Assembly (NCBI GenBank): GCA_016842085.1
Contig: JAEVEX010000009.1
Coordinates: 1 to 48,693, forward strand
Origin: Candidatus Thermoflexus tengchongensis
Lineage (GTDB): Bacteria; Chloroflexota; Anaerolineae; Thermoflexales; Thermoflexaceae
Reading direction: 5' to 3'
DNA: 48,693 bases
Below are positions 13,501 to 27,010 of this stretch, piece after piece. Made by a program: the position numbers and the translations under genes. Under the pieces are notes generated by a model. That model was not told the DNA's origin. It ran no database searches and saw only the letters and a program-made list of their open reading frames with translations. Each line of letters opens with the position of its first letter. Position 1 is the first letter of the stretch.

Positions 13501-13706
13501 GGGCGGAGCGCGCCATCGAGGATGCGCCCTGGCTGGAGGAAGGCTATCAGGTTTTGATGCGGGCGTGGGCCCGCCAGGGGCATCGATCACGCGCCCTGTG
13601 GATTTACGAGCAGGCTGTGGAGGCCCTTCGCCGGGAGCTCCAGGCCGCTCCCTCCCCGCTCACCCACTGGCTCGCCGAGCGCCTCCGCCGGGGTGAGCCG
13701 ATCTGA
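10566..13706 (+). CDS. Giant ATPase-TPR-SARP/BTAD transcriptional regulator
   Basis: The 1046-residue product has the layout of MalT/SARP-type regulators. An STAND-like ATPase comes first, with Walker A SAPPGYGKSML (about 32-42) and Walker B LRLLDDVHLL. Helical TPR-like repeats fill roughly residues 290-640 and HEAT-like repeats about 715-790 (DPREQVRRAAARALAATREEA). From about residue 792 there is an OmpR-like winged helix (IRLLGRFEVRRGG) followed by a BTAD domain (VEVDVERIEAEI and its TPR hairpins). The DNA-binding end is thus C-terminal. Such proteins switch on genes when a ligand or partner releases the ATPase. The ATG at 10566 has GGAGGGG upstream. The target genes may be the adjacent membrane-protein genes, which is inference from position only. 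Confidence 0.88.
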   Translation: MEANRVLAVFQIRPHLIRRVQEGLHQGTVWVSAPPGYGKSMLLRSLELHLPGSRYLPLTPSAIDPGNLQEVLASLEPARLRLLDDVHLLADGPEALRDLREAIARAPDRWVIAGRWIPEPLCEGPFLQTWLTEAELAFSIPEVAMALGVDRETAARIHARTRGWPIVIALLAQPDANRPLPERWPEAQDRLFEELARSLLRALPEALRIFLFRTAVPLMFNLSLAAALFEDHPELQARLPNLLAEAQRRRLFLEPASPPDRWRYHELFREFLLRHGPEPLPPLFARAMAWFEGQGDLEMAIEHALAGRLEAEAVRLLRALPDAFIWDRGRRRTFQRWVMSLREPARREAPDLMLRLGKELHRAGHWEEGRAVLREVLTWAEQQEDAALRDQASLMLASVLYIEGRFGESLAWSMQRLQQIHSPRLRMRLLKTAADACAGLGRLSEARRLYREAMALAEELGDPHYPVFLRHNRAVGVEIPAGRFREARGLLAANAPYYEGRPAQRITHLIGWAMLAIERGAWAELEQILGEIEALAREVEEGQASNDFWFWWCRAMGAIGQGRWEEAASAFTHAEDLVRGHPEREGFLAQAQAWQARRQGRPEDAIRIAEQALPRLDGAPLARALVALERDLAAQAMGRVENHPAVETLIAARAGASFLRLRALRALQAHAVGDPRWRRHLQAALRHLSREDLLSARDPELGTAFWLLCLKEGIGEEEAIRALGGLRPFPALRELLRDPREQVRRAAARALAATREEAAMLLLQDALRRERHPAIRKALEGALQFLESLPPPPLEIRLLGRFEVRRGGELLPESIWPRPAVARLLQYFALHRRQWLPRERILEDLWPERDPEDAGEIFRRLFSWLHQVLEPAMRPKGPFRYFDVKGDTLRFDPHDVVEVDVERIEAEIRRALVTRPMPQETWAALAKRLEEWPLLLPDRPYEAWLIPYQERWRALRTEAAQALAEDALVLQELDAAIRWAERAIEDAPWLEEGYQVLMRAWARQGHRSRALWIYEQAVEALRRELQAAPSPLTHWLAERLRRGEPI

Positions 13707-13800: not shown

Positions 13801-14661
13801 ATGTCGAGCATGGAGTCATCCGGATCTTCAGGAGGAAGCCGGCTGCCGCTGCTGGTGGGGGGCGGATGCGCCGGGTTGCTCTTCCTCGGGCTGGCGATCC
13901 TCGGCCTGGTGATCTGTGGGGTCGGTGTTCTGGCCCTCCAGGGCCAGAACCGGCAGCCCGTGCGGCCGGCCACCCCGGCCGTCCGACCAGCTGGCACGCC
14001 CGGTGTGTCGGGCGGAGGGCCTAGCGGCGGAGGTCCGGGGGGCGGGCCGGTCGTCCCTGCCCCCTCGCCCGGGCCCGGCGGCGGGCCGATGGGCGGCGGG
14101 CCCCAGGGCGGCCCCGGCGGGCCGGTCGCACCCGCGCCGGGTGGGCCCTCAGGGATGCCCCCTGAAGGGCCTTCCGCAACAGGGGGTGAAGGGTTCACGC
14201 TGGTTCAAACGGGCGGCTACACCTGCGATGTCAACGCCAACCAGTGCCAGCCCCTGACCTCCGGGGCCGGATCCGCCATCCAGGTCCGTGCCATGGGGGA
14301 TGGGAGCATCCAGGTGCAGTTCCCCTTCGGCGGCCTGCGGATCAACCGGGATTGCTCCCTGGTGGACCAGCCGGGCTACACCCTGTTCCCATGCCCCTTC
14401 TTCCCCAACGTGCAGGGGTTCCAGGGGCTGCTGGTCACCGCCCAGGGCGCCCAGCCGATCCACACGCCGTTCCAATACGCGCTGATCGATACGGATTTCG
14501 ATCAGGACGGTGTGGTAAACGAGCCCGGCTACTTCAGCCACAGCAGCGGGAGCATGGCCTTTGAGGCCTACCGGGAGGACGGCACCCTGAAGTTCGCCGG
14601 CTACATCGTCGACACCGGGAACTACACCTACCTGTATGTGTTCACCTATGCCGCCCGCTGA
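13801..14661 (+). CDS. Membrane-anchored protein with Gly/Pro-rich linker, unknown family
   Basis: I do not recognise this family. The ATG at 13801 follows GGGAGGGAG and gives 286 residues. A single membrane helix lies at about 18-42 (LPLLVGGGCAGLLFLGLAIL and on), probably with the C-terminus outside. A long glycine- and proline-rich linker runs to about residue 120. A globular domain of about 165 residues follows, with four cysteines (YTCDVNANQCQPL, INRDCSLV, LFPCPFF) and several YxYxYxF-like strands, which suggests a beta-rich extracellular domain held by disulfides. It lies 39 bases ahead of the first PrsW-like gene and may be its partner or substrate, which is inference. Confidence 0.75.
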   Translation: MSSMESSGSSGGSRLPLLVGGGCAGLLFLGLAILGLVICGVGVLALQGQNRQPVRPATPAVRPAGTPGVSGGGPSGGGPGGGPVVPAPSPGPGGGPMGGGPQGGPGGPVAPAPGGPSGMPPEGPSATGGEGFTLVQTGGYTCDVNANQCQPLTSGAGSAIQVRAMGDGSIQVQFPFGGLRINRDCSLVDQPGYTLFPCPFFPNVQGFQGLLVTAQGAQPIHTPFQYALIDTDFDQDGVVNEPGYFSHSSGSMAFEAYREDGTLKFAGYIVDTGNYTYLYVFTYAAR

Positions 14662-14700: not shown

Positions 14701-15675
14701 ATGGCTGCATCCGGGATCGCGGCGCTGGGGGTCGCGATGGTCGGCGCGCTGATCCCCACCGCCGTCTTCGCGGGCGTGATGTGGTGGTTCGATCGCTATG
14801 AAAAAGAGCCGTTGACCCTCATGGGCGTGGCGGCCCTCTGGGGCAGCCTTTCGGCGATGGCCATCGTCCTGCTGCGGCCGCTGATCCTCGCGGGAGGGGC
14901 CGCGCTCTTCGATCCGCTGGCCACAGGGACCTGGGGGAACGCGGTTCTGCTGCCGGCGCTGGAGGAGATCGTGAAGGGGCTGTTTCTTCTGGGGTTCTTC
15001 CTGCTGTATGCCCGGGAGATCGACAGCCTCTACGATGGCTTCCTTTACGGCGCGCTGACGGGCTTCGCCTTCGCCGCCGCGGACACGATCCTGGGGGCCC
15101 CAGCCCGAGGCTGGGGTCTGGGCGAGGCCCTGGGGCGGACCGCCGTGCTGGGCCTGGCGCAGGCGTTCTTCACCGCCTGGATCGGCCTGGGGCTCACCGC
15201 AGCGCGGTTGAGCCGGGGACCCTCCCGGTGGGCGTGGCCGGTCCTGGGCCTTCTGGCGGCGATCGGTTTCCACAGCCTGCGAGAGCTGGCCATCATCCCC
15301 ACCCTCTGGAACCCGGGGCTGGCCGGGCTGCGGACGCTGGTGAACACCCTGGGGGTTCTGCTGTTGATCGGCATTGTGGTTTACGGGATGGGCCGGGAGC
15401 GGGCCTGGATCGCCCGGTATCTGGCGGAGGAAGTCTCCGCCGGCGTCCTCCCGGCGGCCCTGTATGAGACCCTCCGATCGCCGACCGGCTGGCTCGCCTA
15501 TCGCTGGGGTCCGCTCCTCCGGGGCGACACGACGACCTGGCGGCGGCGCGGGCAGCAGCTCCAGGTCGCCGCCGAGCTGGCCTTCCGCAAGCACCAGCGG
15601 GCCATCCTCGGCGAGGCCCGCTGGGAGAGCGAGATCCAGCGCCTGCGGGAGGTCCTGCGCCGCCTGACCCCATAG
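14701..15675 (+). CDS. PrsW-family membrane protein with degenerate active-site motifs
   Basis: The 324-residue polytopic protein is clearly a paralogue of the next gene. Both share WWFDRxEKEPL, REIDSLYDGFLYG and a near-identical cytosolic tail (LAFRKHQR, LGEARWE, EIQRLRE). PrsW proteins are intramembrane metalloproteases that cleave anti-sigma factors. This copy keeps the EExxK motif (E88, E89, K92) and H191. The conserved EN pair is D128-T129 and the first conserved histidine is Q154. The fourth motif reads FHSLREL rather than FHALHNT. It is therefore probably inactive, or it works as a pseudoprotease that binds substrate or the active partner. AAGGAGG precedes the start. Confidence 0.85.
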   Translation: MAASGIAALGVAMVGALIPTAVFAGVMWWFDRYEKEPLTLMGVAALWGSLSAMAIVLLRPLILAGGAALFDPLATGTWGNAVLLPALEEIVKGLFLLGFFLLYAREIDSLYDGFLYGALTGFAFAAADTILGAPARGWGLGEALGRTAVLGLAQAFFTAWIGLGLTAARLSRGPSRWAWPVLGLLAAIGFHSLRELAIIPTLWNPGLAGLRTLVNTLGVLLLIGIVVYGMGRERAWIARYLAEEVSAGVLPAALYETLRSPTGWLAYRWGPLLRGDTTTWRRRGQQLQVAAELAFRKHQRAILGEARWESEIQRLREVLRRLTP

Positions 15676-15712
15676 GGATTCGGGGCTCACCTTTTTCGTT
15701 CGGAGACTGGCC

Positions 15713-16744
15713 ATGGAGAACCAGAGCGGATTCCCGCTCATTGCCCTCTGTCTGGCACCGTTGCTGGCCTTCGGGCCGATGGTGCTCTATGCCGCCTTCG
15801 CCTGGTGGTTCGATCGCTTCGAGAAGGAGCCCCTCTGGCTGATCGGGGCGGCTTTCCTGTGGGGCAGCGTCCCCACCGTATTGCTCGCCCTGTGCGCCCA
15901 GATCCCGACCTTCGGCGTGCTGGGCGCCGTCCTCGGAAAGGGCGCGGGGAGCGCGATGGGCAGCATCCTTGTCGCTCCCTTCACCGAGGAGCTCTTCAAG
16001 GGCCTTTTCGTCTTCCTGCTTTTCCTCCTGTATCGCCGGGAGATCGACAGTCTCTATGACGGCTTCCTCTACGGCTCCCTGGTGGGCTTCGGCTTCGCCG
16101 CCACGGAGAACGTCCTCTACTTCCTGAGCGCCGCCTCCGCGGGCGGGCTCTCCGGGATGTTCGGCAATTTCATCGCCCGGGCGATCGTCTTCGGCCTGAA
16201 CCACGCGGCCTACACGGCCCTCACCGGCCTGGGGTTCGCCGCCGCCCGCCTGTCGCGCTCGACGCTGACCCGCCTCGCCGCTCCGGTCCTGGGCCTGGGC
16301 GGGGCCATGGCCTTCCACGCCCTGCACAACACCACCGCCACGCTGACCGAAGCCACGGGATCCCTGCTGTTCTGCCTGCTGTGGATCCCCTTCGACTGGC
16401 TGGGGGCGCTGCTGATCTTCGCCATCGCCCTCTATGGGCTGACGCGGGAGCGGCGCTGGCTGCAGCAGTATCTTCGGGAGGAAGTGAGCGCCGGGGTGCT
16501 CCCGGAGGCCCTCTACCGGCAGTGTGCCTCGATCTTCGGGCGGATCGGCGGACGGTGGGGGGCGTTGCTGCGGGGCGATATGGCGACCTTCTGGCGGCTC
16601 GGGCGGATCTACGCGCTGGCGACGGAGCTGGCTTTCCGCAAGCACCAGCGGATCGTCCTCGGGGAAGCCCGCTGGGAGCCGGAGATCCAGCGCCTGCGGG
16701 AGGCCCTGCGCCGGGAGATCGGAATGGCCGCGGAAGCCCGTTGA
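15713..16744 (+). CDS. PrsW-family intramembrane metalloprotease
   Basis: This 343-residue copy keeps all visible family motifs: EExxK as E92-E93-K96, GFGFAATEN with E132-N133, H164 in NHAAYTA, and H202 with N206 in FHALHN. About eight to nine membrane helices precede a soluble tail of about 90 residues. PrsW of Bacillus subtilis cleaves the anti-sigma factor RsiW; the substrate here is unknown, and no sigma/anti-sigma pair is in the window. It starts 37 bases after the degenerate copy. The pair most likely arose by tandem duplication and may form a heterodimer. Confidence 0.9.
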   Translation: MENQSGFPLIALCLAPLLAFGPMVLYAAFAWWFDRFEKEPLWLIGAAFLWGSVPTVLLALCAQIPTFGVLGAVLGKGAGSAMGSILVAPFTEELFKGLFVFLLFLLYRREIDSLYDGFLYGSLVGFGFAATENVLYFLSAASAGGLSGMFGNFIARAIVFGLNHAAYTALTGLGFAAARLSRSTLTRLAAPVLGLGGAMAFHALHNTTATLTEATGSLLFCLLWIPFDWLGALLIFAIALYGLTRERRWLQQYLREEVSAGVLPEALYRQCASIFGRIGGRWGALLRGDMATFWRLGRIYALATELAFRKHQRIVLGEARWEPEIQRLREALRREIGMAAEAR

Positions 16745-16815: not shown

Positions 16816-17019
16816 TCAATCCCCTGATGTCGCTACCGGGGGACCCTCCATCCATAGCCGGAGGATGCGGGGCAGATCCCCAAGGTCCCGGAAGATCCAC
16901 TGGCGCATGGTGGCCGGCTCCGTCACGCGGCCGTAGAGCGCCCCGTCGGGCTCCTGGAAGAGCTGCACCACATAGATCCGCACGATCCGCCGCTGGGGCG
17001 TGGGCTCCATCCCGTTCAT
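16816..17019 (-). CDS. Small conserved-looking protein of unknown function (67 aa)
   Basis: I do not recognise it. The ATG at 17019 follows GGGAGG. The 67-residue product begins MNGMEPTPQRRIVRIYVVQL and continues as a small alpha/beta protein with a motif-like stretch FQEPDGALYGRVTEP and a helix DLPRILRLWME. It carries no membrane segment. The frame extends upstream as a shadow of the next gene, but the clean ribosome site and sensible composition begin here. It is the last gene of the minus-strand cluster that starts near 23415, and shares its direction. Confidence 0.7.
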   Translation of the reverse strand: MNGMEPTPQRRIVRIYVVQLFQEPDGALYGRVTEPATMRQWIFRDLGDLPRILRLWMEGPPVATSGD

Positions 17020-17102
17020 CGGAACCTCCCGAAGAGGGGATCTCTTCCCCTCCGATTTTCCCCGAAAGGTCGGAACAGCCCGGGAACAGAAGGGTGGCCA
17101 GC

Positions 17103-18980
17103 TCAGGCCGACAGTCCTCTGGCCCAGAGCCCCCACAGGAGGGCGCCGAGAAGCCCCCCGACCCGCCCGCGCCATCCCGAACCGCGAATCCCGAGGAAGG
17201 GGAGGGCGGCCAGGAGGGCCCCGGCGGCCTGAAGGAAATACGCCCCGCTCAGAAACTCCACGGGGGTCCGACCGTAGAGGCGCTCCAGCCATCCCCCGGC
17301 GAAGGGAAGCGCCGGTAGGGGGACGATCCACGGGGCCACCCGGAAGCCCACCGCCCCCAGGCCAATCCAGGCCCCGTGCATCCAGCGGGCGACTCGGGAG
17401 CCCTCCGGGGGCGGGAGGAGCATGCTTCCGATCAGGAAGGCCATGGGAGGCAGCCAGCGATCCTCCAGAGGCAGGATCGCCGTCAGCGGGACCATCAACC
17501 CGTAGCCCAGCAGGAAGGGCCGAATGGGAGAGATCTCGCCCGCCTCTTCCAGCCCCCGGGCCGTCTGAAGGGCCGTGAACACGAGATAGGGGAAGCCCCA
17601 TACGGTGGCCCCCAGCAACGGCCAGAGGGCGCTCACCCGGATGAGCGCCTCCGGATCGGTAAGCTGCTGAACCATAACGATGGTGAGCAGAAGCAGCGCG
17701 GCGGCGACGATCCACTCCAGCAGATCCTCGGCGTCCTCCCGGAGCTCCTGCAGGCCCTTCAACGGCTCCCACGTCCACGCCAGGATCACCAGCAGCAGCG
17801 GCCACCATTGCTGGGGGAGATCCAGATCGAGGGCGCCGAAGAAGGCCTGATAGAAGGCGAACAGGAAGGCGACCGCCCCCACCGCGAGGGCCACATATCG
17901 CCGCCCGAAAGCGAGCGGATCCATCCGCCGTCGCATCCAGATCCCGGCCGCCCCCAGGAGGAACAGCACCCCCACCGCGGTCCGGGCCGCCAGGTAGGCA
18001 TCCGGAGGCCATTCGCGGATCCGATGCCAGAGCTCTCGATAAAGCGAGAATACGACCATCATCCCCGGGATACGGATCAGAAACCCGGCCCAGAGCTCGG
18101 GCCAGAAGGCGGGAAGGGCCAGGACGCCCAGGGCCAGGGTCAGGAAGGGCAGAAGCTGGAAGAGACGGGGACGCGTCCGGAGGATCTCCATCCGCCGGCT
18201 CCAGAACCGGCCCAGGCGGGCCCCATCCTCCACCAGGTTGGCCCCCAGCCACAGCCAGACGGGGACGCTCAGGCCCCACACCGCCTGCAGCATCCCCCGG
18301 ATACCCTCCCCCACCGCCCCGGGCGAGGCCCCCCACGCAATGAGATAGGGCCCGACCAGGCCCAGGGCAAGGAGAAGGCCCCGGATGGTCCGGGACAGGC
18401 GGAGGCGCCGCCAGAGCGGCAGGGCAGCGATTCCGATGCCGATCAGGGCCTTCATGGCCAGGCTGAGGAACAGCGGGCGGATCGGATGGGGCGGGAACTG
18501 CGTTAGGGCCAGCGCCCACAGGATCCGTCCGGGCCACCCCTCCAGGACCGAGCGGGGATGGGTTCGCTCGAAAAGGAAAAGGGTGAGGACGGGGATCAGA
18601 ACCCACTCCAGGGAGGGGCCGGCGAGAAGAGGGAAGCCGAAATAATAGAGGCCATACACCCCCGTCAGAAACCGAAAAGCCGCTGGCAGATCCCCCGCGG
18701 TGGCCATGAGCAGCGTCCAGAGGAAGGCAACCCAGAGGGCGAGGAGCCCGGTCCCCACCGGCCGTTCCAGCCCCGCGCGGGCGGCGGCTCCCACCCCGGG
18801 GATGGTGAGGGCGAAGGCCAGGCCAATGGTCCCCCCCAGCAACAGGATCCACGCCCATCCCCGCATCCCCATCCGGCGCAGGTCCGCCAGCAGGCCGACG
18901 CCGCTCTGCTGGGGCTCCAGCGTGAAGATCCGGACCGCGTCCACAAGGGCCTGACGGAGCTCCATCAGCCAGGCGGACAT
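17103..18980 (-). CDS. Large polytopic membrane protein of unknown family
   Basis: The 625-residue protein is hydrophobic throughout, with about 13-15 candidate helices and charged loops. After a 40-residue amphipathic N-terminus comes WAWILLLGGTIGLAFALTIP. I see no transporter, glycosyltransferase or protease motif. One loop of interest is WEPLKGLQELREDAEDLLEW. It begins nine bases after the upstream propeller gene ends, so the two are almost certainly co-transcribed. The overlapping 725-residue frame on the same strand is rejected because it is Pro/Gly/Arg-rich and has no coherent membrane pattern. Function is unknown. The first 40 residues look cytosolic and may bind a partner. Confidence 0.82.
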   Translation of the reverse strand: MSAWLMELRQALVDAVRIFTLEPQQSGVGLLADLRRMGMRGWAWILLLGGTIGLAFALTIPGVGAAARAGLERPVGTGLLALWVAFLWTLLMATAGDLPAAFRFLTGVYGLYYFGFPLLAGPSLEWVLIPVLTLFLFERTHPRSVLEGWPGRILWALALTQFPPHPIRPLFLSLAMKALIGIGIAALPLWRRLRLSRTIRGLLLALGLVGPYLIAWGASPGAVGEGIRGMLQAVWGLSVPVWLWLGANLVEDGARLGRFWSRRMEILRTRPRLFQLLPFLTLALGVLALPAFWPELWAGFLIRIPGMMVVFSLYRELWHRIREWPPDAYLAARTAVGVLFLLGAAGIWMRRRMDPLAFGRRYVALAVGAVAFLFAFYQAFFGALDLDLPQQWWPLLLVILAWTWEPLKGLQELREDAEDLLEWIVAAALLLLTIVMVQQLTDPEALIRVSALWPLLGATVWGFPYLVFTALQTARGLEEAGEISPIRPFLLGYGLMVPLTAILPLEDRWLPPMAFLIGSMLLPPPEGSRVARWMHGAWIGLGAVGFRVAPWIVPLPALPFAGGWLERLYGRTPVEFLSGAYFLQAAGALLAALPFLGIRGSGWRGRVGGLLGALLWGLWARGLSA

Positions 18981-18989
18981 GGTTTCCCC

Positions 18990-20231
18990 TCACCGGGAAG
19001 GGAGCTCGTAGAGCTGAACACGATACCCGGATGGCCCGGATCCGAGGAGCACCGCGGCCAGATGGCCCTCCTCCAGGAGCGCCATCTGCCAGGGACGCGG
19101 CGGCAGGACGGCCCGCCCGCGCATCCGCCCGCTTTCTGTCTCCCAGATGTAGAGCCGCCCGTTCATGTCGCCCTCCCCCACCCAGTCAGCCAGCCCGACG
19201 ACCCACCGCCCATCGGGGGTGAACTGCAGCGCCTTCAAGGGCAGTGGGAACTTCCCCTCCATCTCCGGCTGTAGCTCCAGCTCCACCTGCAGGTCCAGAC
19301 GCACATTTCGCCGATCCGGATCGATGGAGACCCGCCACAGGGCGACGCGGGTCGGGAAGGGGCCTTCATAGCCTTCGTCCTCGATGGGCCGCATCTCGTT
19401 CTCCGCCGCCGTCAGGAGGCGGCCGTCGGGCGAGAGGGCGATCGCCGTCAGCGGATCGAACGAGATGGATCCCCACCGTTCCCCGGTATGGGTATCCCAT
19501 ACCTCCAGATCCGGGCTGAGGTCGCTCATCTGGAAGATCAGGCGCTCGTCCGGCGTCATCGCGAAAGCATCCGCGGGGCCGTGGAGTTCGAAGGCGAAGG
19601 CCCTTCGCCCGGTTTCCACATAGTAACCGCTCAGGGTGGATTCGCCGCCAACCAGCAGCAGGGTGCTCTGGGGGGAGAACGCGATCCGCCGCACCGCTTC
19701 CTCCGGAGTCAGCCCAAAAGCCATCTGCTGGCCCTCGATATCCCACACCTGCACTTCCTCGCTGACCGTGCGCAGGGCGAAGAACCGCCCATCGGGGGCG
19801 AACACCAGCTCATCGATGCCTTCCGGAGCGGTGGGCCCCTCCGCGATCTCCCCGGTCCGGGGATCCAGGAACCCGGTCTGGCCGTTCGCCGTGAACAGCG
19901 ATAGGCGGCCGTCGGGGGCCGCGGCGATGGCGGTCACGCCTTCCACCCGAAGATCATGCCGGAGGGTCAGCGCCCCCGGCGGGGCCGGTGCCCGGGTGGG
20001 CGTCGGGGCCGGCGCCGGCTGGGGCGGCCGGGTGGGAGCGACCGTCGGTGCCCGGCCGGGCGTGGGCGAGGATGGCGGTGCGCAACAGACGAGCACAGGG
20101 GTGGGCGATGGGCGAAGCAGGGTCGGAAGGAATCGATAGGCCAGGAACCCGCCGCCCCCCAGGGCGATGCAAGCGCACAGGGCGCCGAAGGCCAGCGTTA
20201 AACCGCCGATCAGAACCGTGCGTCCACGCAT
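18990..20231 (-). CDS. Membrane-anchored beta-propeller (WD40-like) protein
   Basis: Starting at the ATG at 20231 (AGGAGGACGTGG ahead), the product has 413 residues. A single helix (TVLIGGLTLAFGALCACIAL) is followed by a proline/threonine-rich spacer to about residue 85. A WD40/YVTN-like propeller follows: IAAAPDGRLSLF, LVFAPDGRFFAL, VWDIEGQQMAF, IAFSPQSTLLLVG, VWDTHTGERWGS and ALSPDGRLL are successive blade strands. Such proteins usually serve as scaffolds or sensors outside the membrane. The reading frame extends to 20360, but that part lacks a start signal. It lies between an arrestin-like gene and the large membrane protein gene in a tight operon. Confidence 0.8.
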   Translation of the reverse strand: MRGRTVLIGGLTLAFGALCACIALGGGGFLAYRFLPTLLRPSPTPVLVCCAPPSSPTPGRAPTVAPTRPPQPAPAPTPTRAPAPPGALTLRHDLRVEGVTAIAAAPDGRLSLFTANGQTGFLDPRTGEIAEGPTAPEGIDELVFAPDGRFFALRTVSEEVQVWDIEGQQMAFGLTPEEAVRRIAFSPQSTLLLVGGESTLSGYYVETGRRAFAFELHGPADAFAMTPDERLIFQMSDLSPDLEVWDTHTGERWGSISFDPLTAIALSPDGRLLTAAENEMRPIEDEGYEGPFPTRVALWRVSIDPDRRNVRLDLQVELELQPEMEGKFPLPLKALQFTPDGRWVVGLADWVGEGDMNGRLYIWETESGRMRGRAVLPPRPWQMALLEEGHLAAVLLGSGPSGYRVQLYELPSR

Positions 20232-20252
20232 CCACGTCCTCCTATCGGATTC

Positions 20253-20272
20253 GGCAACCGCTTGCGGTTGCC
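20253..20272. repeat. Short perfect palindrome, variant of the GGCAACTGC repeat
   Basis: GGCAACCGCTTGCGGTTGCC is a perfect 9-bp inverted repeat with TT at the centre. It lies just after the stop of the arrestin-like gene, in the minus-strand operon. It matches the core of the repeats at 33287-33320 and 38759-38786, except that a T-A pair of the stem has become a C-G pair on both sides. Confidence 0.75.
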
Positions 20273-21322
20273 CTATGGGGAACCCGGAACCACCCGCACG
20301 GCGACCTCGGCCGAGAGATCCGGGGCATGGGGACGGTCCGCGATCCCCCGGACGAACCATCGGATGTCATAAAGGTCGCCGGAGTGCGTGATCGGGCCAT
20401 CGGCAGGGATCTCAAAAGCAAACCCTTCCTCCTGGCCGGGGTCGAGCGCATAAACGGCGCGGCCGATGAGGCTCGTCCAGGTCCGCCCCCCGGCGAGGAT
20501 CCGGTAGCCGGCCTCCACCTGCACCCGCTGCCGCATCTCGCCCTCCCAGCGGACCCATCCCCGCAGGGCCGAGCCCACCGGGAAAGCCCATGCGGCCAGA
20601 GCGATCCGCAGAGGGTCGGAGGACGGGAGGTCCGAAACAGGCTCCGCCGCCGGGGCCTCCGGAGCCGGCGATACCCGAACGGGCCGGACGTGGAGCGGGA
20701 TTTTCTCATACGCGTCCGGCCATCCCTGCAGGCCAACTTCCAGCTCCACCCACCATTCGAAGGCGTGGACGTCGGGGCCGAGGCGGCCTCGCTCCTCCCG
20801 CCGGAACGAGGCCATCCCATCGATCGGGATGGTGAGGGCGGCAATGTAGCGCTGGGGAAGCCCGGGGAGGAGCTCGACGCGGTCGGCGATCGGGATCTCC
20901 TGGACCACCCGCGTCTGCTCCCGCTCCTCCCTCCGCCGGTGGGTTTTACGGAACCAGTCCCACACCCAGAAGGCCATGGATTCCTTCGTCATCAGCCGGA
21001 GGCGGATGGGGCCGGCGATCAGGGGGCGATGGGCCTCCACGGCGATCTGAACCGCGAGGGTCTCTCCCAGGCGGGCCGTGCGGGGCTCGACTTCGAAATG
21101 CACGGTGGCGGCCATACGGGTGAGCCCTTCCGACACGAACGCGACCCCCAGGAACAGCAGGAAAAGGGCCGCCAGCCCTCCTCCACATCCCCCGATCAGC
21201 GCCATTTCCAGATCCCCCGCCCGCCCGGCACGAACAGAAAACCATCCCCCCAGGCCGACGGCCCCCAGACCCAGGGCGATCAGCGTTCCACCGATAAGGA
21301 TCTCCGGAACCCCTCGCCGCAT
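20273..21322 (-). CDS. Membrane-anchored arrestin-like-fold protein, unknown
   Basis: I call a 349-residue protein from the ATG at 21322, chosen because it begins the first membrane helix (VPEILIGGTLIALGLGAVGL). No strong ribosome site is visible, so the start is less sure than for neighbours. A second helix is at about 40-65. The rest is beta-rich and resembles an arrestin/Spo0M-like sandwich: VHFEVEPRTARLGETLAVQI and a second similar half near ALAAWAFPVGSALRGWVRWE. There are no enzyme motifs. The upstream zinc-ribbon gene ends at 21366, so the order in the operon is zinc-ribbon, arrestin-like, propeller. Confidence 0.7.
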   Translation of the reverse strand: MRRGVPEILIGGTLIALGLGAVGLGGWFSVRAGRAGDLEMALIGGCGGGLAALFLLFLGVAFVSEGLTRMAATVHFEVEPRTARLGETLAVQIAVEAHRPLIAGPIRLRLMTKESMAFWVWDWFRKTHRRREEREQTRVVQEIPIADRVELLPGLPQRYIAALTIPIDGMASFRREERGRLGPDVHAFEWWVELEVGLQGWPDAYEKIPLHVRPVRVSPAPEAPAAEPVSDLPSSDPLRIALAAWAFPVGSALRGWVRWEGEMRQRVQVEAGYRILAGGRTWTSLIGRAVYALDPGQEEGFAFEIPADGPITHSGDLYDIRWFVRGIADRPHAPDLSAEVAVRVVPGSP

Positions 21323-21365
21323 CGGTGGATCGAAGAAGGTCGGAACGCTCAGCCCGACGATGCCC

Positions 21366-21851
21366 TTACCGGTTCCCTTCCCAGGCCGCCGGGAGAGCGG
21401 CCCGACAGGCCGGGCAGCGCCGCCATCCCGGATCCACCTCGCGGGCGCAGTAGGGGCAGTGGAATCGGGCGGGCTGGCCACACCCGGCGCAGCGGACCGC
21501 TTCTCGCTCCAGCCGCCGGCCGCAACCCGGGCAGCGGAACGCTACCGGGGGTTCGGACGGGAGAGTGGGCGGCGGTCCCTCCAGCGCCCGGGCGAGGGTT
21601 CGAGCCACGGCCCCGGCCTCCTCGCGGGCTCGCGCCCTCAGGCCCGGCGGCGGAGCGAGCCGGGGGAGGCGAGGCCGCCAGCTCCCGAAGGCGCGCCCCA
21701 GGGCCCGGGGGAGGAGCCAGAGGTTCAGGGCCAGCGAGAGGGTCAGCAGCCCAAGCAGCCCCAGCGCCCCGCCCCGCCCCCCGAGCGCCAGATCGAGGGC
21801 GATGGCCCCCAGCCCCCCGATCGCCAGACCCCAGCGGACCGTCCGCAGCAT
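21366..21851 (-). CDS. Membrane protein with double zinc ribbon
   Basis: The 161-residue protein has two N-terminal membrane helices (about 5-55), a basic/proline-rich linker, and a C-terminal double zinc ribbon. The four metal-binding knuckles are CPGC, CAGC, CPYC and CPAC between about residues 107 and 152, so two zinc ions are expected. Double zinc ribbons of this type often mediate protein-protein contacts in the cytosol. No enzyme motif is present. The start at 21851 lies nine bases after the stop of the pilin-like gene, with GAGGGCGAG ahead of it. Confidence 0.8.
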   Translation of the reverse strand: MLRTVRWGLAIGGLGAIALDLALGGRGGALGLLGLLTLSLALNLWLLPRALGRAFGSWRPRLPRLAPPPGLRARAREEAGAVARTLARALEGPPPTLPSEPPVAFRCPGCGRRLEREAVRCAGCGQPARFHCPYCAREVDPGWRRCPACRAALPAAWEGNR

Positions 21852-21860
21852 CGCTCGCCC

Positions 21861-22151
21861 TCATGCGGTGGGCGGGAGAGGCGGGAACGGCAGAAAAGGC
21901 GAGAGGATCGGCCCAAAGGTCTCGGTCAGGCGAGCGAAGAACGAGCGGATGGCCTCCGCGACCGCCCCGCCCACTACATCGGGATGACTGCGGATGTAGG
22001 CGGCGATGGCCCCGAGCAGGGCCAGGATCACCACGGCCAGGGCGACCCATTCCAGCGTCTGCAGCCCCCGGGCATCCCGGAAGAGATCGAAGGGAAGGAT
22101 CCGCCCCGGCCAATGAATGAGTTCCTCCCGCAGGGTCCTCCGGTGAAGCAT
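21861..22151 (-). CDS. Small Flp-pilin-like membrane protein
   Basis: The 96-residue product has a basic N-terminus and then DARGLQTLEWVALAVVILALL. The glycine followed by four residues and a glutamate-aromatic pair, ahead of a hydrophobic helix, resembles the processing site of class III (Flp/Tad) prepilins. A hydrophilic stretch and a proline-rich tail follow. The match is by pattern only: no TadA, TadB/C, or prepilin peptidase gene lies in the window, and the leader is longer than in most Flp pilins. AAGGAGGGG precedes the start. It is placed between two zinc-ribbon protein genes. Confidence 0.6.
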   Translation of the reverse strand: MLHRRTLREELIHWPGRILPFDLFRDARGLQTLEWVALAVVILALLGAIAAYIRSHPDVVGGAVAEAIRSFFARLTETFGPILSPFLPFPPLPPTA

Positions 22152-22199
22152 CGGCCCCTCCTTAAGAAGTTTGTCCGATAACGGCCGGCGCGGTCCGGC

Positions 22200-22796
22200 T
22201 TATCCGCCGATCTTCGCCCCGCAGGCGGGGCAGAAGCGGGCGCCGGCGGGGAGCTCCGCGCCGCACTGGGGGCAGAACCGATACGCGCCGCCGGGGGCCG
22301 CTTCCCCACCCGATGCGGTGGGGGTAGTCGTGGACTGGACCGCGCTGACGTAGCGCTGGGCCTCCGCATAGCGGCCGGCCACCCAGGCCGCGGTATCCGC
22401 CGGCAGCGCCGCCCCGGTGGCGATGAAATACTGGATGAACTCGAAGGTTCGCTGGGGGAGCTTGCTCTGCTGCCAGGCCCCGTAGGCGGCGGTGAACAGC
22501 AGGGGCCAGAGGAGGAACAGCCCTGCCCCGGCCGCCACCGCCTTATCCACCCACTTGCCGGCTCCGATCTCCACCTGGAGGCTGTCGCCCTGCCGGCGAA
22601 GGGCCACATTGAGCGCTGAGGACACCCCCAGCAGATTCCGCCAGGTTTCGTCCTGGCGGGCCTGGATCACCACCCCACCCTGGGGGAGATCCAGCACCTG
22701 CACATCGAACTTCTGGGCTCGATACCAGTCGGCCAGGGCCTGCACCAGCCGGCCCATATCCAGGTTCGGGGCATGGAACACGCGCTGATCGGGCAT
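22200..22796 (-). CDS. Membrane-associated protein with C-terminal zinc ribbon
   Basis: The 198-residue product begins with a soluble alpha/beta domain of about 85 residues (LVQALADWYRAQKFDVQVL, GGVVIQARQDETWRNLLG, SLQVEIGAGKW). A single helix follows (AGAGLFLLWPLLFTAAYGAW), then an amphipathic stretch, and a CPQC...CPAC zinc ribbon at the very end. The order matches uncharacterised zinc-ribbon proteins of actinobacteria and Chloroflexota. No enzyme motif is visible. GAGGAGG precedes the start at 22796, and the next upstream gene ends 12 bases before it. Confidence 0.8.
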   Translation of the reverse strand: MPDQRVFHAPNLDMGRLVQALADWYRAQKFDVQVLDLPQGGVVIQARQDETWRNLLGVSSALNVALRRQGDSLQVEIGAGKWVDKAVAAGAGLFLLWPLLFTAAYGAWQQSKLPQRTFEFIQYFIATGAALPADTAAWVAGRYAEAQRYVSAVQSTTTPTASGGEAAPGGAYRFCPQCGAELPAGARFCPACGAKIGG

Positions 22797-22808
22797 GGTT
22801 TCGCCTCC

Positions 22809-23078
22809 TCAGGCCGGGGTCTGGAGGAACAGGGTGGTCTGCATGGCGTTCAGCACCGCCAGCTCCAGCAACAGCTGGGTGACCTGCTCATGGAGGGCAT
22901 CGCTGAGCTGGGGCTCGATCTCCCGCAGCAGGGCCGCCACCCGCTCGGCCTGGGCCCGCACCTCCTCCGGGTCGATGCGGCCGTCGGCGATGGCCTGCTG
23001 CCAGGACTCCATCCGATCCACATACCGCTGGAAGAAGAGGGCATCCCCCTCCTCGCTGAACCAGCTGATCCGACCCAT
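22809..23078 (-). CDS. Small helical protein of unknown function (89 aa)
   Basis: I do not recognise it. The ATG at 23078 follows AGGAGG. The product is nearly all helix, with acidic and leucine-rich stretches (QRYVDRMESWQQAIADGRID, RVAALLREIEPQLSDALHEQ, VTQLLLELAVLNAMQT). It lacks membrane segments and cysteines. It could be a four-helix bundle or a coiled-coil partner of the zinc-ribbon protein encoded 12 bases downstream, which is inference from position. Confidence 0.75.
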   Translation of the reverse strand: MGRISWFSEEGDALFFQRYVDRMESWQQAIADGRIDPEEVRAQAERVAALLREIEPQLSDALHEQVTQLLLELAVLNAMQTTLFLQTPA

Positions 23079-23157
23079 AGGCGCCTCCTGGGCCTGAAAT
23101 GCAGAAGGATTTTCCGCCTTGCCTGGGAACAAGCTGGGAACAACATCTGATCTCCGA

Positions 23158-23415
23158 TCACTTCTCACCCCTGGGGGGAGGAGCTGCGCCGGGCAATTCC
23201 TCCGAGAGCTTTCGCTCTTCCAGCTCCATCCGGAGCTGAAACCGCCGGGCGATCTCCCCCGGCCCCGTCCCGGTCTGTGATTCCTCCCCTCCTTTCTTCT
23301 TATCGCCCTCCTCTTCTTCTTCCACCTGCTTCTTCCACAGCTCTTCCGTCTTCATCACCCCTGCCCACACGGAGGCCGGCGCGCAAACGCCTCCAACGCA
23401 GAACCCATCGGACAT
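23158..23415 (-). CDS. Small acidic/basic low-complexity protein (85 aa)
   Basis: The start at 23415 has GGGAGGGGG ahead. The product begins MSDGFCVGGVCAPASVWAGV, with two cysteines five residues apart. It then becomes highly charged, with a run of glutamates and lysines (KKQVEEEEEGDKKK) and a helical end (RRFQLRMELEERKLSEELPG). I do not know the family. The cysteine-containing head and charged tail suggest a small cytosolic adaptor. It is the first gene of the run of small genes and lies 32 bases after the secreted-protein gene upstream. Confidence 0.6.
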   Translation of the reverse strand: MSDGFCVGGVCAPASVWAGVMKTEELWKKQVEEEEEGDKKKGGEESQTGTGPGEIARRFQLRMELEERKLSEELPGAAPPPRGEK

Positions 23416-23447: not shown

Positions 23448-25427
23448 TCACGGCCCCTTCACCACCAGGGGCAGGTAAAGCCGATTTCCAACTGGAAGGC
23501 GGAACGAACCGATGCGCGTGTGCCAGCAAGCGGTGGTGGAACAGCCAGCGGGGTTGCTGGTCGTGTAATACTCGTGGACGGCCCAGAAGGTGACATCATC
23601 TACAGGATCGATGCTGAGCATGCTGTAATCGCCCCACCGGGACCCCGTGGATGTCTGAGCGGCGGAGCCCGCCTGCAGCGTGGCCTCTGGCCCCAGGGTC
23701 CCAGGGGGGTCACTGGGCGTGCGGCATGCATACCGGATGCTGGGATAAACGCTGGCGCTCGAGACGGTATAGCTGATGCAAAAGTCCCCATACTTATCGA
23801 AAGTCGCACTGGCCATCCACCGGCTGTGGGAATCTGGCGGATTGCCGGTGTAGGTGCCCTGGTCGAGGATGGAGACGGCACCTGTGGTATTGTCATACGT
23901 CAGGATATACCACCGCACAGCGGCCTGATACTGGCCAGCCGTCTGACACCGCGTGGGCGTCAGGCCGGGGGCACACACCGTATGGTTGGCTCCGATTAGA
24001 GAATAGCTCCCCATATTGCGGATGGTGACCCGGTGCATGAAGCGGTCCGAAATGGAATCCAGGTAGGCCGCCGTGGCGACACCGGGTTGGGGAATGTCGT
24101 CCCTCCCACTGGGATTCGAGGGATCGAAGGGGGCGACGGGCAGGGTCGCATCCTGCACGAAATCGGCGGCCGCCGGATTCGACCAATCGAGACTGAACTT
24201 GTACACGCGGATGGCATCTGCTGGGAAACCCCACTCATCGGCGATCCATTCCAGGAAGATCCCGGGGGCTGGCTGACCTCCGATGGGAGGCAGTGGAGAG
24301 GGTCCCTCGATGTCCGCCGCCAGGACGCCCCCGACCTGCGTCAGGTCCACGCCCGAGGGAGGGGCAGCCATGCGGCCGAAGTAGATCATCCGGGCCGTGG
24401 GGTCCCCAACGAGCATCTTGTTGCGCTCCAGGGCGGCGACGGCCTGGGCCAGATAGGAAGGGACGCTGAGGTCGAACTCGTGGGCCGTCATCCAGTAGGC
24501 CTCCGGCGAGATGGCGTGGTGCGGGTAATCCATGAAAATGTGGGCGCCCGACCCCGCCGGGAAGTCAGGCCAGATAAATTCGTATACGTAGTAGGGGCCG
24601 AGGGGATCGCCCGTCTGGGAGACAGCGACGCAGTGCCGGCTGGGGCCAGTATTGTTGCGGGCATCTTGGACATAGAACTGGGAGAGGAACCAGCGGTCGG
24701 CGAACTGGTCGTAGAGCGCGATAACGTCGCCGTCATTGGCGGAGGCACAGGGACCGCTAAAGCCGGCCGAGGCGAACAGGGCGCTGAGAGGAAAGGGGGC
24801 GGAGAGGGGGTTGCCGTTTTTATCGTAGACGCGGAGGACCAGGTTCACGAACTCAACATAGTGGGAAGGACCGACATCACCGTTCACGTCCGGCGGCAAG
24901 ACCTGCCGGCCGATTCCTCCCAGGATGTTATCGTAATTGTTGAGCCCTTCAAAGGAAAGGAGAGGCGGGGGTGCCGGGAGGGCAGGGGCCGGGGTGACGA
25001 GGGAGGGGGCCAGGGACTGAACCCCGGACGGGCCGGGGCGGATCCCCTGAGACCGGGGAGGAACCGGGAGAGGAAGCCACTGCTCCCGCCAGCGCTGGAA
25101 AGCCGGATCTGGGGCAGCACTGGGGAAGCGTTCCTTCCAGTGCTGGGCCACGTAGCCAGCAGACCGGGAGATTCCATGCTGAGCCGGGAAGAGAATCCGC
25201 GGCCCTTTCGGGGTGGAAGCCGCAAGGGGCTGGGGCTGCCTCGGGTTAGAGGGGCTTGGAGCTCCGGCAGTGCTCTCAGGGCTCAGATCCAGCGCATGAA
25301 TGGAAAAGGGCGACGGTTGTCCGACGGCTCCGCGAGCAGAGGGGATGGAAACGCCCAGCGCCGCGAGCGCCAGGATGCCCGCCACCAGCCCGCGCATCAT
25401 CCGTCGTCCTGCCTGCGTCATCCTCAT
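23448..25427 (-). CDS. Large secreted protein with YLPLVV C-terminal tail
   Basis: The ATG at 25427 follows AGGAGG, and the 659-residue product begins with a signal peptide (MMRGLVAGILALAALGVSIPSARG). A proline-rich pre-region runs to about residue 150. The globular part contains DVNGDVGPSHYVEFVNLVLRVYDKNG, FSGPCASANDGDVIALYDQFADRWFLSQF and RWMASATFDKYGDFCISYTVSS, all reminiscent of secreted beta-propeller or sialidase-like domains of unknown function. The extreme C-terminus is NRLYLPLVVKGP, which also occurs, slightly changed, in the next gene. There is no membrane helix at the end, so the tail may be a sorting or surface-attachment signal. Confidence 0.85.
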   Translation of the reverse strand: MRMTQAGRRMMRGLVAGILALAALGVSIPSARGAVGQPSPFSIHALDLSPESTAGAPSPSNPRQPQPLAASTPKGPRILFPAQHGISRSAGYVAQHWKERFPSAAPDPAFQRWREQWLPLPVPPRSQGIRPGPSGVQSLAPSLVTPAPALPAPPPLLSFEGLNNYDNILGGIGRQVLPPDVNGDVGPSHYVEFVNLVLRVYDKNGNPLSAPFPLSALFASAGFSGPCASANDGDVIALYDQFADRWFLSQFYVQDARNNTGPSRHCVAVSQTGDPLGPYYVYEFIWPDFPAGSGAHIFMDYPHHAISPEAYWMTAHEFDLSVPSYLAQAVAALERNKMLVGDPTARMIYFGRMAAPPSGVDLTQVGGVLAADIEGPSPLPPIGGQPAPGIFLEWIADEWGFPADAIRVYKFSLDWSNPAAADFVQDATLPVAPFDPSNPSGRDDIPQPGVATAAYLDSISDRFMHRVTIRNMGSYSLIGANHTVCAPGLTPTRCQTAGQYQAAVRWYILTYDNTTGAVSILDQGTYTGNPPDSHSRWMASATFDKYGDFCISYTVSSASVYPSIRYACRTPSDPPGTLGPEATLQAGSAAQTSTGSRWGDYSMLSIDPVDDVTFWAVHEYYTTSNPAGCSTTACWHTRIGSFRLPVGNRLYLPLVVKGP

Positions 25428-25510: not shown

Positions 25511-27010
25511 TCATGGCCCCCTCACCACCAGGGGCAGGTAAAGCCGATACCGGCAGCGGTTCTCCGTCTGCGTCTCCGGAACCGCGCTCGGGAACGCGAT
25601 CGTTCCAACAGTCAGCGGAGCCGGGCTGCTGTCCACCCCAAACGTCTGCACGGCGATCGCCGGCGTCGCCATCACCGTCGTTGCCGGCGCCGAGTTACAC
25701 GTGCCCTCGCCGAGGTCATCCGTCCGCACGACATACATGTCATCATAGGCGGTAGAGTCCGGCCATGTATCGCCTGCCAGGAGAAAGCCTCCGTCCGCGG
25801 CCATCACTGCTGTGGCGATACCTTCGCCTCCGCCGCCGTCATAGGTCCGGCTCCACTGGACGTTCCCCGCCCCATCGATCTTCACCGCATAGGCATCGAA
25901 ACCCGAACTGGAATTGTGGGTATTTCCGACCAGCAGAAAGCCTCCATCCGGCGTCCGCACCACGGCCGTGCCTGCCTCATCCAGGACGCCAGGCCGCCCG
26001 TAGGTCCGGCTCCACTGCACGTTCCCCGCGCTATCCAGTTTCACCGCCAGCATATCGTCGTCTGACACGTTCCCGTCCATCCCAACTACGGTGGTCCCTA
26101 CCAGCAGAACACCGCCGTCGAAGGTGGTCACCATATCCCCCAGGCTAACGCTTCCGAAGCTGGGATTCGTTAGCTCCCAGCCCTGCTGAACCGTTCCATC
26201 CGCGTTCAATTTCAACAGGACAATGGAATACGTATACTGACCTGTCCGATAGTCGTAGAAGGATCGGTCGCCTCCCACCAGGAATCCCCCGTCCGCGGTC
26301 TGAACCACGGAAAACAGGAATGTTTGCGCTGTGGAAGATGAGAGCGTATAGGTGCGGCTCCACTGCACGCTGCCTGAGCCGTCCAGCTTCACCACCAGCG
26401 GCTGAGAAGGAGAGAGGTCGCCAGGCGAAGTGCTGCCCACCAGCAGAAAACCACCGTCGGAGGTGGCCAGGATGGTTCCTGCTCCCTCCAAGGCGCCTCC
26501 ATCGTAGGTGATGGCCCGCTGCACGTTCCCATCCGCATCCATCTTCACCAAGTAGATGTCGCGGTCGGTAGAGCCGGCCAGCCAGAACCCCCCATCCGCG
26601 GCGGCTACGGCGCCACCGGTCCATGCGTTCCCATCCCCATACGTCCGGCTCCACTGCACATTCCCGGCGGCGTCTACCTTAATGACGTAAGGATAAGTGG
26701 GGGGAGTAAGAGAAACTGTCCCGACAAGCAGGAAGCCCCCATCTGAGGAGGGCACCACAGTCCTGGCGCGCTCATCACTCCCTTGCAGTCCATAGGACCG
26801 CTGGAAGCGGGTCCCGGCTGCGGCGGCGCTCGCCGCGGCCCGGCAGACGGCCCCTGGCCCGTCGGGGGTTCCCGGAAGGGTCAACCCCCATTCTCCCAGC
26901 ATCAGCACAAGCAGGGCCACGATGGCCCGCACGGCTCCTGATCGCCTCCCCCGCACGCTATAACCCGTATGGTTCGGTCCCTTTCGATGCCGAAACACCG
27001 TCCACCTCAT
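25511..27010 (-). CDS. Secreted repeat protein (DGGFLLVG propeller repeats) with YLPLVV tail
   Basis: The product has about 499 residues from the ATG at 27010; a second ATG at 27049 and a GTG at 27064 are alternatives because no start has a perfect ribosome site. A hydrophobic segment (AVRAIVALLVLMLGEWGLTL) should act as a signal peptide. The body holds about seven repeats of 45-60 residues, each with DGGFLLVG-like and GNVQWSRTY-like strands, a pattern found in secreted beta-propeller proteins. The end is YRLYLPLVVRGP, as in the neighbour. No catalytic motif is visible. It is probably a cell-surface binding protein. Confidence 0.82.
   Translation of the reverse strand: MRWTVFRHRKGPNHTGYSVRGRRSGAVRAIVALLVLMLGEWGLTLPGTPDGPGAVCRAAASAAAAGTRFQRSYGLQGSDERARTVVPSSDGGFLLVGTVSLTPPTYPYVIKVDAAGNVQWSRTYGDGNAWTGGAVAAADGGFWLAGSTDRDIYLVKMDADGNVQRAITYDGGALEGAGTILATSDGGFLLVGSTSPGDLSPSQPLVVKLDGSGSVQWSRTYTLSSSTAQTFLFSVVQTADGGFLVGGDRSFYDYRTGQYTYSIVLLKLNADGTVQQGWELTNPSFGSVSLGDMVTTFDGGVLLVGTTVVGMDGNVSDDDMLAVKLDSAGNVQWSRTYGRPGVLDEAGTAVVRTPDGGFLLVGNTHNSSSGFDAYAVKIDGAGNVQWSRTYDGGGGEGIATAVMAADGGFLLAGDTWPDSTAYDDMYVVRTDDLGEGTCNSAPATTVMATPAIAVQTFGVDSSPAPLTVGTIAFPSAVPETQTENRCRYRLYLPLVVRGP

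Follow-up and report, generated by a model that had tools for sequence, protein, structure and literature searches.

Comparison with described systems

PrsW is the site-1 protease of the RsiW/SigW system, and BTAD (SARP-type) regulators are known that carry an ATPase and TPR repeats. In Bacillus subtilis, the ydj and phage-shock protein (PSP) operons encode zinc-ribbon, membrane-anchored proteins (YdjG and YdjL, beside PspA) that are proposed to bring proteins together on the cytoplasmic side of the membrane (PMC11237479). Here we describe a cluster of nine minus-strand open reading frames (ORFs), a to i, at positions 16816-23415 of a 48,693-nucleotide window, which is the whole stretch of DNA that was analyzed (contig JAEVEX010000009.1 of Candidatus Thermoflexus tengchongensis; Chloroflexota, Anaerolineae). 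Two of these genes, b and c, are linked to each other and to a changing set of partners in several families of the class.

The locus shares features with each of these systems. Like the ydj/PSP operons, it is small and encodes zinc-ribbon proteins with membrane segments, but it has no PspA, PspC, band-7 or SHOCT domain, and its b-c core has no sequence counterpart there. Two proteases of the PrsW family (PF13367) are encoded in the locus, both above the Pfam cut-off, whereas no anti-sigma or sigma factor gene was recognized among the neighbors scanned; a single-pass protein, here called LPG, is the candidate substrate. The locus also has a regulator with PF03704, TPR, HEAT and a P-loop-like GYGK[ST] motif, as in the BTAD class, but it belongs to a subgroup tied to b-c and its regulatory role is a predicted one. 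Literature searches, which mostly returned the openings of abstracts, turned up no description of this locus, and none of six envelope terms occurs in the Thermoflexus genome paper (PMC8129789).

Linkage of genes b and c across Anaerolineae

Profile searches covered 396 genomes of the class Anaerolineae, 387 of them outside the genus, and neighborhoods outside the genus were compared by means of a six-frame map. The genome of the window is referred to as G000, and the genus set comprises this genome and eight genus-mates, G001-G008. The two core genes and their partners e and h are as follows.

Gene b, 22809-23078, minus strand: 89-residue helical charged protein, part of the core
Gene c, 22200-22796, minus strand: KA1/helix-grip-like domain, hydrophobic Trp-Pro segment and C-terminal zinc ribbon, part of the core
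Gene e, 21366-21851, minus strand: two hydrophobic segments and a double zinc ribbon
Gene h, 17103-18980, minus strand: 625-residue polytopic protein of no known family

Gene b was found in 17 of the 396 genomes, seven within the genus and ten outside it. Gene c directly follows b in all nine non-genus genomes in which both are complete (G014, G029, G058, G059, G080, G081, G117, G128 and G171), and the pair is present in nine families of Anaerolineae, the Thermoflexus family included. The tenth non-genus genome, G024, has c-e-h with a fragment of b; at this place (L041:9700-9800), b lacks its end and c its start, and the remainder is joined, either by deletion or by an assembly fault. Gene e comes after c in six of the ten (G014, G081, G024, G029, G059 and G080), and h comes after e in two (G024 and G080), so that part of the gene order of the preliminary description is kept in relatives beyond the genus. 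Genes b and h co-occur in four of the 387 non-genus genomes against 0.16 expected (p 3e-6, solid h matches), or in three against 0.12 (p 9e-5) when G024, whose h seeded the profile, is left out; the test is inflated by genome relatedness and by seeding. Co-occurrence of b with f and of b with a, each in one of the 387, was not significant.

Other partners adjoin the pair without e. The order a-b-c is found in G117, a BTAD gene immediately precedes b in G058 and G128, and G171 has the order BTAD, f, two short ORFs, b, c. Gene c itself takes two forms, a long one with zinc ribbons that is followed by e, and a short one without zinc ribbons that lies beside BTAD or a; in Thermoflexus, the long form occurs together with partners typical of the short form.

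Gene h was found in 18 of the 396 genomes: all nine of the genus, six others with solid matches (G024, G029, G080, G117, G254 and G292) and three with partial or weak ones (G087, G110 and G176). G110 and G087 each have a piece of h next to a gene that we take to be radC-like; the piece in G110 also adjoins a presumably rtcB-like gene, which flanks b-c-e in G059, a family-mate of both. This arrangement suggests that an older b-c-e-h set has decayed.

The stable unit is a b-c(-e) core with recurring partners, unlike the nine-gene unit first described. Genes e, h, a and f, the P-loop/TPR/HEAT/BTAD regulator and secreted propeller proteins join b-c in varying combinations, and Thermoflexus has the fullest set, with LPG and two PrsW-type proteases in addition. 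The idea that the nine genes encode one assembly was not supported by the comparison. In G029, G117, G292 and G254, h is separate from b-c; f occurs by itself in G141, G322 and G265 and was not found in six of the nine genus genomes, d is confined to one subclade, and a is a remnant. On these differing distributions, the nine-gene unit was rejected.

Neighboring genes associated with the core

Several genes that travel with the cluster lie on either side of it and were missed in the gene set of the preliminary description.

BTAD regulator, 10566-13706, plus strand: P-loop, TPR, HEAT, winged-helix and BTAD parts
LPG, 13801-14661, plus strand: single membrane segment, Gly/Pro linker and an outer domain without a Pfam match
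PrsW1, 14701-15675, plus strand: PrsW-family intramembrane protease (PF13367, 70.4 bits, cut-off 23.5)
PrsW2, 15713-16744, plus strand: PrsW-family intramembrane protease (PF13367, 138.5 bits, cut-off 23.5)
adh1, 23448-25400, minus strand: secreted 650-residue protein with C-terminus LYLPLVVKGP
adh2, 25511-26932, minus strand: secreted DGGF-repeat protein with C-terminus LYLPLVVRGP; relatives adjoin b-c in G058 and G128

The BTAD regulator matches PF03704 with 46.5 bits (cut-off 22.1), and its P-loop-like motif, which begins at residue 33, ends in GYGKS. In G128, G171 and G058, no gene of the genome matches the regulator of the window better than the BTAD copy at the b-c locus; the G058 copy is truncated at the end of its contig. 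The top BTAD match of G117 is on a different contig from a-b-c.

No Pfam match above the cut-off was obtained for adh2, and its relatives at the b-c locus of G128 carry DUF5122 propeller and SdrD_B-like domains. Genome-wide, adh2-type pieces lie at the b-c locus in one of one case in G000, seven of seven in G128 and three of five in G058, and in G128 there is a 4-base overlap between c and the first adh2-type gene; elsewhere, adh2-type proteins are rare. In G004 and G007, gene a is immediately preceded by a secreted gene of a different kind, as is a fragment of gene a in G292.

The two PrsW genes form a tandem (14701-16744) whose types are about 44-55% identical to each other across genomes, and their orientation switches between Thermoflexus subclades. 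Both adh1 and adh2 end in LYLPLVV[KR]GP, and related loci encode similar ends (LYLPLVIRER in L164, HYLPAVIR in L225 and QYIPAAVR in L038). Such ends may possibly be a C-terminal sorting or anchoring tail of Chloroflexota.

Gene order within Thermoflexus

Four genomes (G000, G008, G004 and G003) share the order LepA, secreted gene(s), a, b, c, d, e, f (not in all), g, h, i, followed by PrsW2, PrsW1, LPG and BTAD on the opposite strand; genes a, b and c are unreadable in G003, and G008 has a different ORF between LepA and a. In the second subclade (G002 and G005), LepA, b, c, e, g, h, LPG, PrsW1 and PrsW2 lie on one strand, and in G002 gene i and BTAD face this run from the other side. G001 and G007 show parts of this second order, and the contig of G006 is too short to judge most genes. 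A single inversion of the LPG-PrsW1-PrsW2-i block would convert one order into the other.

Predicted structures of c and h

The C-terminal part of c matches Zn_Ribbon_1 with 40.9 bits (Pfam cut-off 25). A model of c built from 16 sequences, with a mean predicted local distance difference test score (pLDDT) of 68.4, has a strand, a helix, four strands and then helices, and a poorly predicted linker precedes the zinc ribbon. For the N-terminal domain, Foldseek gave a probability of 1.00 to the KA1 domain of Chk1 and the VCR of METTL16 (E 0.003-0.006). VIA gave Z 9.2 for METTL16 VCR (root-mean-square deviation 4.1 over 103 residues) and 9.1 for SAD-kinase KA1 (2.6 over 87), with scores of 9.2-8.3 across METTL16 VCR, SAD and Chk1 KA1. 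The strand-helix-four-strand order is likewise that of the KA1/helix-grip domains, but c is bacterial, has a hydrophobic segment and zinc ribbons after the domain, and is known from a model of moderate confidence. In this case, the likeness is a lead that falls short of membership.

The AlphaFold2 model of h, from 13 sequences, has a mean pLDDT of 69.6, a predicted template modeling score of 0.63, and more helices than the 11 hydrophobic segments counted by hydropathy. A PDB sequence search gave no match to h at E <= 1, and Foldseek gave none at E <= 0.001. Placement in a solved structural family was rejected, as the best VIA score was Z 6.3, within the chance level for helical bundles. A new fold for h is not established, because the model is of moderate quality.

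Proposed function of the locus

The preliminary description had suggested surface export or envelope sensing by a single nine-part assembly. The sensing half gained ground, since two PrsW-type genes and adjacent genes for secreted surface proteins favor it, while the single assembly was not supported, and that interpretation as a whole is partly supported. We estimate a probability of about 0.4 that this is a modular membrane locus, tied to genes for large secreted surface proteins, that senses or controls the production or assembly of those proteins.

What PrsW cleaves, how the signal is passed on and in which direction control runs are inferred as follows. The KA1/helix-grip-like domain of protein c, together with a hydrophobic segment that has a conserved Trp-Pro, would hold the protein at the inner face of the cytoplasmic membrane and thereby keep its zinc ribbon in the cytoplasm. 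Protein e would be placed likewise on the inner face by two short membrane segments. The cytosolic zinc ribbons of the preliminary description are plausible. Protein b probably binds c, because the two are co-encoded everywhere. Where present, h would act as the integral hub, the propeller protein g and LPG would face outward, and f may supply arrestin-like sandwich domains near the membrane. Together, these parts would signal the condition of the envelope or the surface proteins; proteolysis by PrsW may then release a membrane component or reset it, and the surface-protein genes may be switched on by the BTAD ATPase regulator.

A more specific and more tentative proposal, which we regard as doubtful at present, is that b-c(-e-h) is an undescribed inner-face signaling core, in which a KA1-like lipid-reading domain and zinc-ribbon adaptors link the P-loop/BTAD regulator to surface propeller proteins across Anaerolineae. 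Genes a, b and h and the domain of c lack a convincing match in Pfam and, in the cases searched, any sequence match in NCBIfam or the PDB, and these families co-travel in unrelated families of an environmentally common class with a poorly understood cell surface. If the proposed sensing role is true, it would provide a testable route by which Chloroflexota couple the envelope to surface-protein genes, as well as a bacterial use of the KA1-like fold.

A number of results weigh against a sensing role. PrsW and LPG were not found beside b-c in the neighborhoods mapped outside the genus. No BTAD match was found in G014 and G024, both of which have b or c, and G080 gave only a weak one. None of the four adh2-type pieces of G117 is at a-b-c, both contigs lying elsewhere, one of the two contigs in G058 is likewise away from b-c, and a genome-wide search found no adh2-type pieces in G004, G014, G024, G080 and G171. 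For c, no Foldseek match reached E <= 0.001, and the mean pLDDT of the model is moderate. Within Thermoflexus, background synteny is high, and the genus-level order is weak evidence because LepA and a penicillin-amidase gene are kept as well.

Several other explanations account for part of these observations. In G058 and G128, c is immediately followed by secreted propeller genes, which in the window precede b. Together with a polytopic h without an enzyme motif, this position would also fit a dedicated machine for export or assembly of the adjacent secreted proteins, with h as a translocation or flipping channel, c, e and b as cytosolic substrate adaptors, and g as an outer chaperone. We consider this unlikely: the stretches read at the b-c loci of G058 and G128 contain secreted genes but neither e nor h, the Pfam and NCBIfam matches of the cluster include no ATPase or translocase family, and the secreted proteins carry ordinary N-terminal hydrophobic signals. 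It is less probable still that the cluster is an envelope-stress module of the Bacillus ydj/phage-shock type, with zinc-ribbon membrane adaptors and with surface genes that are neighbors by position only. The PrsW-type genes and the zinc ribbons on membrane proteins agree with such a module, as do the zinc ribbons described for YdjG and YdjL beside PspA (PMC11237479), but Pfam and NCBIfam found none of the PSP-type domains named above in the cluster, and the short c of other families has no zinc ribbon.

Gene loss, a remnant and an inversion inside one genus, as well as the separation of h from b-c in four genomes, could instead mean that the DNA from LepA to the BTAD gene is a loosely organized, rapidly changing island without a single function past b-c(-e). 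This is about as improbable as the stress module, given that b and h co-occur above chance and that the same partners have repeatedly been joined in unrelated families. The assembly of nine proteins has tight gaps and an order kept in the subclade in its favor; however, a is a remnant, d, f, g and i have narrow or different distributions, and h and f stand alone elsewhere. It is largely refuted by distribution, and we consider it highly improbable. Sensing or control of surface proteins by a modular locus is the reading that we prefer.

Remaining genes of the cluster

All nine ORFs are present where first described, and eight look like genes. The five ORFs not listed above are as follows.

Gene a remnant, 23158-23415, minus strand: 85 residues; retains both ends of a membrane protein of 410-442 residues, with an in-frame deletion of the middle
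Gene d, 21861-22151, minus strand: single hydrophobic segment and Flp-like G/E5/W6 motif, in one subclade only
Gene f, 20273-21322, minus strand: two hydrophobic segments and weakly matching arrestin/Spo0M-like sandwich domains
Gene g, 18990-20231, minus strand: N-terminal membrane anchor, Pro/Thr linker and WD40-type propeller
Gene i, 16816-17019, minus strand: 67-residue protein that adjoins h here and BTAD in the other subclade

Transcription would run from a to i, in alphabetical order. All nine ORFs start with ATG, the GC content of the window is about 0.60-0.73, and GC at third codon positions (GC3) is 0.80-0.92 in eight. The gaps from a to i are 79, 12, 48, 9, 43, 41, 9 and 83 bases, tight as first described but spanning 9-83 rather than 9-70, and adh1 ends 32 bases upstream of a. 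A consensus promoter scan of the cluster gave no sites, and a terminator scan gave eight against 5.9 expected, so that the operon is not delimited by a promoter or an end terminator. Good Pfam matches within the cluster are confined to the zinc ribbons of c and e (for e, DZR with 29.3 bits, cut-off 27.3) and the WD40-type propeller of g, and an NCBIfam scan added nothing; with a sub-threshold arrestin match in f, this agrees with the absence of enzyme motifs noted before. A plain hydropathy count gave one hydrophobic segment each in c, d and g, two each in e and f, and 11 in h. An anchored propeller remains a plausible description of g, which has both the WD40-type match and the N-terminal anchor. 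An anti-phage defense system was rejected, as PADLOC models had no match in nine of ten proteins and g had one weak match (E 7e-4, 7% of the profile).

Gene d has the type IVb prepilin signature, which consists of a Gly before the cleavage site, a Glu at +5 and an aromatic residue at +6; the sequence is G-LQTLEW in the window, G008 and G004. The likeness to Flp pilins noted earlier is confined to this motif: d has no match to PF04964 or any other Pfam family, and its profile does not find the Flp genes of the genome itself, although those match PF04964. It is therefore rejected as a proven Flp pilin. Gene d was not found in G001, G002, G005 and G007.

The arrestin-like nature of f is plausible from domain matches that stay below threshold. 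In the window, Arrestin_N was matched at E 0.057, below the Pfam cut-off, and a Spo0M structure at E 0.16. The relative in G171 weakly matches Spo0M/arrestin-like proteins (Arrestin_N, Spo0M and Arrestin_C at E 3.6e-4, 8.9e-4 and 1.1e-3), but these matches are below the cut-offs as well, and f differs from such proteins in its two N-terminal hydrophobic segments. A single-sequence query with f against the genome contigs found no relative, and the profile found it in 22 of the 396 genomes, with seven strong matches (G000, G003, G004, G171, G141, G265 and G322) and 15 short or weak ones. In the genus, it was not found in G008, the closest relative, or in G001, G002, G005, G007 and G006.

Gene a had been read as a charged mini-protein with a gene of its own. 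About 20 residues at its start and about 60 at its end match the two ends of membrane proteins of 442 residues (G008) and 410 residues (G004), which are intact and sit at the same place upstream of b, and ~350 residues between these ends are absent. Gene a of the window is a deletion remnant or mini-derivative without the status of an independent gene family, and its reading as a family of charged mini-proteins was rejected. At 0.73, it has the lowest GC3 in the cluster, and no intact second copy was found in the genome of the window. The family is present in eight of the 396 genomes, four in the genus and four outside it (two of these by short matches), with long copies in G004, G008, G001, G007 and G117, where a is directly before b-c. 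In G257 (L197 and L200), an open frame of 801 residues contains relatives of a and may be a fused or tandem version.

In G171, a 57-residue protein (L219:4423-4596) without a hidden Markov model match lies by a secreted gene and a second BTAD regulator, and by eye it is similar to gene i, with a DxxGxxxGxxxxP-like pattern.

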